This document shows, piece by piece, positions 42,859-46,644 of a DNA stretch of 64,000 nt; position 1 is the first letter of the stretch; every line of letters starts with the position of its first letter. The translations under genes and the position numbers were made by a program. This DNA is from Candidatus Obscuribacterales bacterium. GTDB taxonomy: Bacteria > Cyanobacteriota > Vampirovibrionia > Obscuribacterales > Obscuribacteraceae. The notes under the pieces were generated by a model that searched no databases, was not told the DNA's origin, and saw nothing but the letters and a program-made list of their open reading frames with translations. The DNA lies in assembly GCA_020050835.1 (NCBI GenBank), contig JAGVKB010000142.1, positions 1 through 64,000 on the forward strand, read 5' to 3'.

Positions 42859-43473
42859 ATGCTGCAGACCAAAATTCAATACAAGCCTTATGCAGAGAAG
42901 GATTTTAAACACCTGAAAGGGCTCAACGGGATCTCCGATCAAACTCTGGAAATTCACCTCGGTCTCTACGCCGGCTACGTAAAGAACACAAACATTCTGA
43001 ACGAAAAGGTAATTGAGCTAACCGAAGCCGGAAAGTCCGGAACACCTGAATATGCCGAACTCAAGCGCCGTTATGGCTTCGAGTACAACGGCATGCGCTT
43101 GCACGAGTATTATTTCGGCAATTTGAAAGCCGGCGGCGGCTCTGATTTGAAAGACAGCAGCGCTCTCGGCAAAGCAATCATCGAAACTTACTCCAGCATC
43201 GATGTCTGGAAGAACGATTTTTGCAAAGTCGGTGCGATGCGCGGAGTTGGCTGGGCCATTCTCTTCCAAGACCCGATCACCAAGACGCTTTCCAATCACT
43301 GGATCACCTTGCATGAAGAAGGCAACATCGCCGGCTTCGCGCCGATCCTGGTCATGGATGTGTGGGAGCATGCCTGGTTGCTCGACTACAAGCCGGCAGA
43401 TCGTCCGAAATACATCGAAGCGTTCTTGAGCAATGTCGATTGGGCAGCAGCTGAAGGTCGCTTGCTTAAGTAA
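42859..43473 (+). CDS. sod: Fe/Mn-family superoxide dismutase
   Basis: The 204-residue enzyme dismutates superoxide. Metal ligands are visible: His in LEIHLGLYAGYV, His in MRLHEYYFGNL, and the Asp/His of VMDVWEHAWLLDY. The second-shell His often found four residues after the first ligand in classical SodA/SodB is replaced by Tyr/Leu (HLGLY), a variant seen in some deep-branching SODs. AGGAGA lies just upstream of ATG 42859. There is no signal peptide, so it is cytosolic. A strong terminator follows. Confidence 0.95.
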   Translation: MLQTKIQYKPYAEKDFKHLKGLNGISDQTLEIHLGLYAGYVKNTNILNEKVIELTEAGKSGTPEYAELKRRYGFEYNGMRLHEYYFGNLKAGGGSDLKDSSALGKAIIETYSSIDVWKNDFCKVGAMRGVGWAILFQDPITKTLSNHWITLHEEGNIAGFAPILVMDVWEHAWLLDYKPADRPKYIEAFLSNVDWAAAEGRLLK

Positions 43474-43560: not shown

Positions 43561-43783
43561 AGATCCTCCCGACCCGGTGCTCTTACCAACCTGCATGAGA
43601 ATCCTCTGAGTTGTGATCGTGGTTTTTCTGACTAAACTGAAAGGGCGCAGCTTAACTTCCGATGGATCTAACCGGTTAAGCGATGAAGTACACGCGTCCA
43701 TATTCCACCGCCAATGGTGGAGAATGCGTCCCTGGCATCCCCAGCAAAATCTGCGTCACTAGGCACGAGAGAGGATGAACAAA

Positions 43784-44518
43784 ATGGTGGCTGAGACAGA
43801 GAAATCTCAAACTTCTCCGGATTCCAAGAATATAGCGCCCGACGCGGTCAACGCAGTCGACGAGCTGACCGAACCGGCTCAAGATGCTGCCGGCAAACAA
43901 CCGGACGGCTCAAGCTTCGATATTCCTCGGCCGTTCCTGACCCTGGAACAAGCGGCTGCAATCCTGGGCAAATCTCTGCGCGCGCTCGAACGCAGTATTT
44001 TAGGCAGATGGGGCAATAAACTGCCAGACGGCTGGGCGGCCCGCAAGATACCAACAGAAAAGGGGACGGAATGGCGAATCCTACCGCCGCCTGGTTTCAG
44101 ATTACGCCAGGTACACAACGCTGAAGAAGATGGACAAACTGAATATGGAGCCGATTCAACCGACGAACCGCTCGCTTCATTGACCGGCAGCGAAAGACGC
44201 AAGGCCGCCTGGCCGCAAAGCTTAGATCGCCACGCCATCATAATCGATCGCAGTGAAGAGGTTGAATATCTTCTCAGGGAGCTTGTACAGTCTCAAAAAC
44301 AGCTTTCTGAAGAGCGCCGACTGCGGATGGAGGATTTGCGCCTGATCACACAGATGCAAGGCTCGATGCGCCTTCTAGAAACCAGAGCTAACGAGACCAG
44401 CAAACTGAAAGATGAATTTTCAACGGCACAGCAAGAGCTGAAGCTTCTGAAGGATCAATATCTGGAGCTACTCCATCAGCCCTGGTGGAAACGCATCTTT
44501 CGCCGGCGCCCACAATAA
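43784..44518 (+). CDS. HTH domain plus coiled-coil protein
   Basis: ATG 43784 lies nine bases after GAGG; ATG 43775 touches it, so the later start is preferred (244 residues). An acidic, flexible N-terminus leads to a MerR/excisionase-like helix-turn-helix (about residues 50-100, FLTLEQAAAILGKSLRALER) with a wing (ARKIPTEKGTEWRI). A long C-terminal coiled coil follows (about 165-230) and a basic end (KRIFRRRPQ). It may be a DNA-binding protein that oligomerises. The targets are unknown. Its stop is 37 bp before a long hairpin and 119 bp before the selenoprotein gene. Confidence 0.8.
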   Translation: MVAETEKSQTSPDSKNIAPDAVNAVDELTEPAQDAAGKQPDGSSFDIPRPFLTLEQAAAILGKSLRALERSILGRWGNKLPDGWAARKIPTEKGTEWRILPPPGFRLRQVHNAEEDGQTEYGADSTDEPLASLTGSERRKAAWPQSLDRHAIIIDRSEEVEYLLRELVQSQKQLSEERRLRMEDLRLITQMQGSMRLLETRANETSKLKDEFSTAQQELKLLKDQYLELLHQPWWKRIFRRRPQ

Positions 44519-44610: not shown

Positions 44611-44637
44611 AGTTGAGCGCTTATAATGGAATTTGTC

Positions 44638-44988
44638 ATGACAACCACCAACCCCTCATTCAAAATTACTTACTGCGGTGCTTGAGGTTATCGTCAACGG
44701 GCTGCCAGGCTGGCAGCCGACCTCGAAATCTATCTGGACGCCGACTCCCGGCTGGTACAGTCATCCGGTGGAGTGTTTGAAGTGGAATACAACGGCACAC
44801 TCATTTACTCGAAAAAAGCACGCGGTCGCTTTCCTTGCGATGGTGAGGTGTTGGATATAGTTCAAAAAATGGAATCCGGACTTGCCCTCGTGGAAGCGCA
44901 GCGTCAAGCGTCAGAGAACGCGCCGCAACCGATATCCTTTTTTGACTGGTTTAAGAAGTCCGTCAAACCCGGGGTCAACAAACTTTGA
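44638..44988 (+). CDS. selW: SelW/Rdx-family selenoprotein (in-frame UGA = Sec)
   Basis: The reading frame from ATG 44638 meets TGA at 44683-44685 and then stays open to the stop at 44986, 116 residues. Around the UGA it reads KITYCGA-U-GYRQRA, the same CGAUGY motif as selenoprotein W. The later FEVEYNGTLIYSKKARG matches the SelW segment FEV.V.GKLIHSKK. The CxxU pair (C13, U16) is the redox centre of this thioredoxin-like fold. The other genes here use UGA as stop, so recoding is specific. A hairpin right after the UGA fits a bacterial SECIS. An ordinary gene caller would keep only residues after GTG 44773 and lose the active site. ATG 44626 is an alternative start. Confidence 0.9.
44698..44719 (+). 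promoter_or_regulatory. Bacterial SECIS candidate
   Basis: GGCTGCC (44700-44706) pairs with GGCAGCC (44712-44718) around AGGCT. The A-T of the loop may also pair, leaving a GGC triloop. The apical loop starts 22 nt after the UGA and has G among its first two bases. This fits the described bSECIS model (stem-loop within about 16-37 nt of the UGA, early loop G). It would be bound by SelB. Confidence 0.75.
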
Positions 44989-44990
44989 TC

Positions 44991-45854
44991 ATGGACCTGA
45001 TCCTCGAAGGACAACTCTCTGCACAGTCAGGCATTCGGGAAGTGCTCCAAGCAGTCTTGAAGCAGACTTCCGAAGCCACCGGCATCTTGCGCATCTCTTG
45101 CCCAGGCAGGAATTTGAACGGGCGGCTTGCTCTAGTCAATGGCCAGTTTATCGTTGGCGCTCAAATTACCGACAGCGAAGAAAACGGCTATGATGCCGTC
45201 AAACAGCTGCTGACTGTTACAGAGGGAAATTTCGCATTTCTGGAAACGGACGACAACAAATCACTCGATCTTGGCCGGACTGTTCATATCAATCTGCTTT
45301 TACTAATCGACCGCTTGCCCGATTTGCCGGACAATCCAGCCGATCTCTTCGATCAACAATCGCTGCTGGATGAAGTATTCGGGCCGAACAATCAAGCGTC
45401 GAATCAACAATCATCAATCGACACGATGGTCTTGCCACGAGAACCGGCCAAACCGGAAAAACAGATGAACGGGTCCAATGGCAATTGGCAATTGCTTACA
45501 CCGTTGATGCAGGAGGATGCTCTGCCCTCCCATCGCCAGGCGCCAATACTGGGCAGCGGAGCGCTTGCTCCCAAGCCAGCAGTCGACAGCAAGTCTAGTT
45601 CGCTTTCTCCAGCTCTGGCTGCGCTTCCGGAAAAACGCGCAGTCTGGCCCGCCGTTCTGGCAATCGCCATGTTGCTCGCTCTAGCGGCAGTTGGTTGGCT
45701 TTTTTGGCCAAAGGCACCGCACGAGCAGAGCGGTCAGCCGACCCGCAAACATGGACTTGTTCACGGTAAGCGCCCGGTTGCGACTCTTGCTCCAGACCGG
45801 ATCGCCCGCACTGCCCGCAACTTATTGAAACGGAGCGACCGCGGCGCCTTGTGA
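44991..45854 (+). CDS. DUF4388-like protein with C-terminal membrane anchor
   Basis: ATG 44991 lies three bases after the selenoprotein stop, so the two genes are tightly linked and probably translated together. The 287-residue protein starts with a DUF4388/PATAN-like domain (about 1-120, GILRISCPGRNLNGRLALVN, then GYDAVKQLL...GNFAFLE), usually found in signalling proteins. A Pro/Ser/Gln-rich linker follows, then one transmembrane helix (about 222-242, VLAIAMLLALAAVGWLFW) and a basic tail. No catalytic motif is seen. A functional link with the redox selenoprotein is suggested only by the spacing. Confidence 0.82.
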   Translation: MDLILEGQLSAQSGIREVLQAVLKQTSEATGILRISCPGRNLNGRLALVNGQFIVGAQITDSEENGYDAVKQLLTVTEGNFAFLETDDNKSLDLGRTVHINLLLLIDRLPDLPDNPADLFDQQSLLDEVFGPNNQASNQQSSIDTMVLPREPAKPEKQMNGSNGNWQLLTPLMQEDALPSHRQAPILGSGALAPKPAVDSKSSSLSPALAALPEKRAVWPAVLAIAMLLALAAVGWLFWPKAPHEQSGQPTRKHGLVHGKRPVATLAPDRIARTARNLLKRSDRGAL

Positions 45855-45918
45855 AGAAGGTCGGACGTTTGCAGAAAGTGTCGTGTTGAGCGGAGAGGGT
45901 GGCTGTATCATTAGTGGC

Positions 45919-46644
45919 ATGAATTCAGGCGACAACGAGTTAACAACAATCACCACAAGCAGTGCTTCTCCCAAATCGCTGGTAATCGCAATTGACGGTC
46001 CGGCCGGCGCCGGCAAATCAACCGTCGCCCGGCGAGTCGCAGACGCTCTGGGCTATCTGTACATTGATACCGGCGCAATGTATCGGGCTGCTACCTGGCT
46101 GGTGCTGGCGCAAAACGTCAATACTCAGGACCTCGAATCAATCGTAAAGCTAGTGGCCGCTGCCAGCATCGAATTGAAGCAATCGCTCGATGGTGGTCCT
46201 CAAACCGTCTTGGTCAACGGCAAGGACGTCAGTGGGGAGATCCGCACCCAACAAATTAGTCGCCTGGTCAGCCCAATCTCAGCCATACCGGGAGTCAGGC
46301 AACATCTTGTCGTTGCCCAGCAGCAACTGGCGGCGGCGGGCGCCGTGGTAATGGACGGTCGAGACATCGGAACAGTGGTGTTACCGAAGGCAGATTTGAA
46401 AATCTTTCTGACTGCCTCGGCCGAAATCCGCGCCGGTCGTCGCTTGAAAGATCTCGAAGCAGCGGGTGAAAGACCGGACGAAGCGGTCTTGCTCCACGAG
46501 ATCAAGGAGAGAGACCGCCTGGATTCGACCAGAGCTGTCGCTCCGCTTCGGCAAGCGCAGGATGCTATTCCACTCAATACCGACAACCTGACCATAGATG
46601 ATGTCGTCTCCCGCATTCTCAATCTCTGCAAACGACAGGCATAA
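45919..46644 (+). CDS. cmk: Cytidylate kinase
   Basis: Cmk phosphorylates CMP and dCMP. The protein is about 241 residues from ATG 45919, with weak ribosome signals and an in-frame TTG at 45883. It shows P-loop IDGPAGAGKSTVARRVADALG, the LYIDTGAMYRA motif, MDGRDIGTVVLP and the lid KERDRLDSTRAVAPL. All key features of bacterial Cmk are present. Confidence 0.96.
   Translation: MNSGDNELTTITTSSASPKSLVIAIDGPAGAGKSTVARRVADALGYLYIDTGAMYRAATWLVLAQNVNTQDLESIVKLVAAASIELKQSLDGGPQTVLVNGKDVSGEIRTQQISRLVSPISAIPGVRQHLVVAQQQLAAAGAVVMDGRDIGTVVLPKADLKIFLTASAEIRAGRRLKDLEAAGERPDEAVLLHEIKERDRLDSTRAVAPLRQAQDAIPLNTDNLTIDDVVSRILNLCKRQA

Follow-up and report, generated by a model that had tools for sequence, protein, structure and literature searches.

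Positions 44638-44988 of the window, by which we mean the whole 64,000-nucleotide stretch of DNA analyzed here, raise the question of whether a TGA that breaks an otherwise open reading frame is a stop, an error or a codon for selenocysteine (Sec). We propose that this segment almost certainly encodes a SelW/Rdx oxidoreductase in which UGA 44683 is decoded as Sec by means of a SECIS element and the machinery of the host, and which likely serves in redox defense. The computed support for this reading covers family membership, the recoding signal, the machinery and conservation. The host is a non-photosynthetic cousin of the cyanobacteria, represented by a draft genome of 7.0 Mb (154 contigs, 95.7% complete, 4.1% contamination).

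The reading frame

A sequence-only reading of this DNA had noted that the frame from ATG 44638 is interrupted only by a TGA at 44683 and then runs on to 44986. Translation bears this out: a single internal TGA (44683-44685) separates the start of the plus-strand coding sequence (44638-44988) from its terminal TGA (44986-44988). With the internal TGA taken as U, residue 16 of a 116-residue product, the translation is MTTTNPSFKITYCGAUGYRQRAARLAADLE...SGGVFEVEYNGTLIYSKKARGRFPCDGEVLDIV...FFDWFKKSVKPGVNKL-stop, and TGA is used twice in the one gene, as Sec codon and as terminator. The choice of ATG 44638 as the start stands only in part; an in-frame ATG is present there, but a further one lies at 44626 (MEFVMTTT...), after an in-frame TGA at 44614, so that the start is not fixed and the protein could begin four residues earlier. 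The same reading had expected ordinary annotation to yield a "headless" protein, and the table-11 ORF list indeed contains only the shortened ORF 44773-44988, with a GTG start. This is a warning that the gene may be shortened or missed by gene callers. The internal TGA is not a product of chance, since the Rdx match extends to both sides of it (E 7e-18) and the same TGA is found in a paralog and in orthologs.

Family membership and predicted fold

The product reads ITYCGAUGY...SGGVFEVEYNGTLIYSKK..GRFP, a pattern characteristic of SelT/SelW/SelH (Rdx) proteins. That CGA-U-GY is the redox motif of selenoprotein W, as had been proposed, is upheld by two family models, both above their cut-offs: PF10262 (Rdx) matches continuously across the UGA (E 7.3e-18; 65 bits against a cut-off of 22.6), and TIGR02174 matches with E 1.8e-14 (53.7 bits against 34.2). 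The Rdx domain occupies residues 9-76 (44662-44865, plus strand). TGA 44683 falls exactly on the second redox position of the CxxU motif, and the resolving Cys13 (TGC, 44674-44676) is invariant in 45 aligned proteins. The best NCBIfam match is the Campylobacter-type equivalog of SelT/SelW/SelH, NF041051 (SelTWH_Campy; residues 9-75), at 77.2 bits, which is below that model's cut-off of 88 and places the protein outside it.

In an AlphaFold2 model (mean pLDDT 84; residues 11-90 are modeled confidently), C13-G-A-U16 follows a strand (7-13) and precedes a helix (19-33), a thioredoxin-like placement. The best solved matches returned by Foldseek are SelW-family structures, including mouse SelW (2NPB), with E values from 6e-4 to 1e-6, and the predicted fold matches them. 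Set beside 2NPB and the bacterial SelW-related crystals 2OBK, 2FA8 and 2P0G, the protein has the same fold by Foldseek and a similar sequence, with 22-38% identity. Beyond the domain, the long ortholog group alone has a C-terminal extension (44866-44985, plus strand) with an SFxxWL/F motif conserved in the alignment; it is of low confidence and partly helical in the model.

The SECIS hairpin

In eukaryotic SelW, Sec depends on a SECIS element in the 3'UTR, whereas the element here is of the bacterial kind and lies inside the coding region. The segment 44683-44730 folds at -21.5 kcal/mol (z -3.5), and folding and covariation define a hairpin at 44700-44718 (plus strand) with an 8-bp upper stem and a 3-nt apical loop, GGC (44708-44710), 22 nt after the UGA. 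The bSECIS model describes an apical loop of 3-9 nt with G in its first two positions, an upper stem of 4-16 bp, a spacing of 16-37 nt and an MFE of at most -7.5 kcal/mol (PMC13188914), and the present hairpin agrees with it on every point (GGC, 8 bp, +22, -21.5 kcal/mol).

The hairpin recurs directly after the UGA in 37 of 37 distinct Sec genes, with a GGU, GGC or GUU loop at +22 (one wider, at +21) and an MFE between -8.5 and -21.5 kcal/mol, the window's gene being the most stable. In a set of 33 distinct Sec genes, pairing extends to 95.1% of the stem cells, and in 22 cells both partners have changed; the covariation score was reached by none of 500 shuffles, and in slid versions of the stem pairing drops to 14-56%. 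Among the 11 Cys/Ser homologs, 52.3% of the stem cells are paired, and RNAalifold predicts no structure. The codons of the stem-loop are frozen (Val as GTC in 33 of 33, Arg/Ser as AGG or AGT only, Leu as TTG in 36 of 39), while Val and Leu outside it, in the same gene, are written with many codons. This is a direct trace of RNA-level selection, and it suggests that the presence of Arg or Ser at Sec+8 would be dictated by the SECIS loop.

Sec, Cys and Ser forms

A SelW homolog is present in 38 of the 53 genomes compared within the order; most of these homologs carry TGA at the same residue, some carry Cys and one carries Ser. Named relatives reached via the protein are Melainabacteria MAGs, one "Cyanobacteria bacterium" and one entry labeled "bacterium", which would place the host in the Obscuribacterales or close to that order. 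The host genome itself holds a second SelW paralog with TGA at the equivalent position (C112:69900-70151); its glutathione peroxidase and AhpC-TSA families contain no internal TGA. The Cys forms are orthologs, because they are situated at the same syntenic locus. When tRNA-Sec was scored in the 18 genomes of the family, the TGA form was found in 11 of the 14 positive genomes versus none of the 4 negative ones (Fisher p 0.011, kinship ignored); two of the latter have a Cys or Ser form only, and two have no homolog. When the Sec column is masked, the protein tree, poorly resolved over its 89 columns, requires three Sec/non-Sec changes and is consistent with Sec being the old state, with a few conversions.

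Two orthologs depart from these forms. In G009 (L134:983-1324) the Sec position is occupied by Ser (CANS), so that the selenol/thiol residue is lost; this genome is without selA and tRNA-Sec, yet has selD above its cut-off. In L131 (G030:C2:43924-44238) the redox motif is broken by extra residues (YCTSLIDCK), possibly through an assembly error or in a decayed copy.

Gene order and selection

The gene sits in a conserved order, sod - coiled-coil-like gene - selW - DUF4388-like gene - cmk, all on the plus strand of the window: an Fe/Mn superoxide dismutase (42859-43473), a coiled-coil-like protein of unknown family (43775-44518), which is directly upstream in most relatives, the selW-like gene, a DUF4388-like protein (44991-45854) whose ATG is separated from the stop codon of selW by 2 bases, and cytidylate kinase (45883-46644). 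Of 56 loci compared, 36 have the coiled-coil-like gene alongside and 38 have cmk, the total including duplicate records of one place, paralog loci and short flanks. The 43775-44518 protein has no Pfam match, its C-terminal half is coiled-coil-like, and it is a possible partner of SelW. A promoter and terminator scan found nothing above chance. Downstream of the UGA, pN is 0.065 and pS 0.50 (pN/pS 0.13, pooled over close pairs), which points to purifying selection there, also on the 29 codons that separate the UGA from GTG 44773.

These data bear on two other accounts of the TGA. The first is that the codon is really TGC or TGT, misread in sequencing or assembly, and that the gene encodes an ordinary Cys-containing SelW-like protein; Cys homologs do exist in the same order, and the codons differ by one base. 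However, the same TGA appears independently in the paralog carried by this genome and in dozens of further assemblies, and the hairpin that follows the TGA is absent from the Cys forms. Given the conserved TGA, the SECIS, the selection, the gene order and the fold, such an error is practically excluded. The second, equally improbable, is that the gene is a pseudogene or the TGA a genuine stop, with only the "headless" product made or nothing at all, as mechanical ORF calling from GTG 44773 would have it; against it stand the purifying selection past the UGA and ahead of that GTG, the conserved residues before the UGA and the conserved synteny.

Selenocysteine machinery and a second selC-like tRNA

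If the UGA is read as Sec, the organism should also make selenocysteine, and the four components expected were all found above curated cut-offs: selA (C2:15630-16970; 555.9 bits against 267.9), selB (C20:14140-16020; 342.1 against 242.25), with GTPase and winged-helix domains, selD (C74:16910-17836; 371.7 against 125), adjoining a TusA/DsrE-domain gene, and a tRNA-Sec with a UCA anticodon (C100:52026-52120; 70.2 bits against 47). The genes are scattered over different contigs of the draft, and the same set is found again in many relatives.

A second selC-like tRNA lies on the minus strand at G000:C17:124709-124808 (L111:3710-3809). It has an 8-bp acceptor, a 5-bp T stem, a long variable arm, a GCA anticodon, U73 and an encoded CCA, and searching the remaining 52 genomes of the order gave no full-length match to it. 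A tRNA-Cys of similar form, selC*, has been reported from Firmicutes, Thermodesulfobacteria, Nitrospirae and Proteobacteria (PMC7609411); the T stem here, however, is of 5 bp, in place of the bulged 8/4 form of selC*. It is not the sole tRNA-Cys of the genome, which has an ordinary tRNA-Cys(GCA) at C74:106338.

A further account has the UGA read as another amino acid, for example Trp through a change of code or Cys by way of a selC-like tRNA, and the tRNA-Cys features of this molecule make a Cys-loaded SelB substrate conceivable. We give this account hardly any credence: the GCA anticodon reads UGC/UGU and not UGA, the sole tRNA-Trp among the best 30 tRNA loci has CCA, the selW-like gene itself ends in UGA, the residue at related positions is Cys or Ser and never Trp, and the tRNA with the UCA anticodon is an ordinary tRNA-Sec. 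A broader proposal would be that the lineage keeps an ancestral SelW-centered Sec trait with repeated Sec-to-Cys conversion and, in addition, that in the window's species the GCA/U73 tRNA is delivered by SelB, Cys entering by way of the Sec machinery under selenium scarcity. We consider the two together a long shot.

Discussion

Decoding of UGA 44683 as Sec would proceed along the usual bacterial lines. SelA and SelD would make Sec, the SECIS hairpin 22 nt downstream of the UGA would recruit SelB, and SelB would deliver the tRNA-Sec(UCA) that decodes it; UGA 44986, which is without a SECIS, would terminate. We infer both the actual insertion of Sec and the redox role at 44638-44988. The function of the SelW family itself is not settled; judging from the family, the protein would most likely act in thiol/selenol redox defense, possibly with a small thiol such as glutathione. 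The selW-like gene has a conserved superoxide dismutase gene as a neighbor.

In bacteria, CxxU SelW-like selenoproteins have counted as a standard family since 2004-2005. They were the most abundant family in the Sargasso Sea (PMC1088965), and in reviews they appear under PF10262, with the CxxU motif (PMC9312934). Our analysis confirms that the selW-like gene is real and its reading correct; proteins of this type had been described before. With the bacterial SELENOW-like family (PF10262; PMC1088965, PMC9312934, PMC13188914) it shares the Rdx domain, CxxU, the in-gene bacterial SECIS and small size, and in both sets Cys homologs occur side by side with Sec forms. It differs in its host (Melainabacteria, judging from the nearest named genomes), in having, within the long ortholog group, some 40 extra C-terminal residues that include SFxxW, and in the presence of two Sec paralogs in one genome.

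What is of wider interest is the setting. Reviews count the Cyanobacteria as one of the few groups that lack Sec (PMC9312934), though here a Melainabacteria-type order has a complete Sec system with target genes and SECIS elements. The Sec and Cys orthologs at one syntenic locus form a clean set for studying Sec gain and loss. We found no open-access paper on this group's Sec system; a Sec protein, PWT95605.1, is mentioned in passing in a Melainabacteria proteome (PMC9529120), the passage in question naming neither family nor mechanism, and it comes from the same broad lineage as the present protein. Sec is rare in the phylum, since selA exceeds its cut-off in only 8 of 386 genomes of a phylum-wide sample, the host genome included. 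The seven selA-positive genomes outside the class are G062, G066, G075, G085, G088, G100 and G103 (families f11, f21 and f27), and some of these assemblies may contain contaminating sequence.
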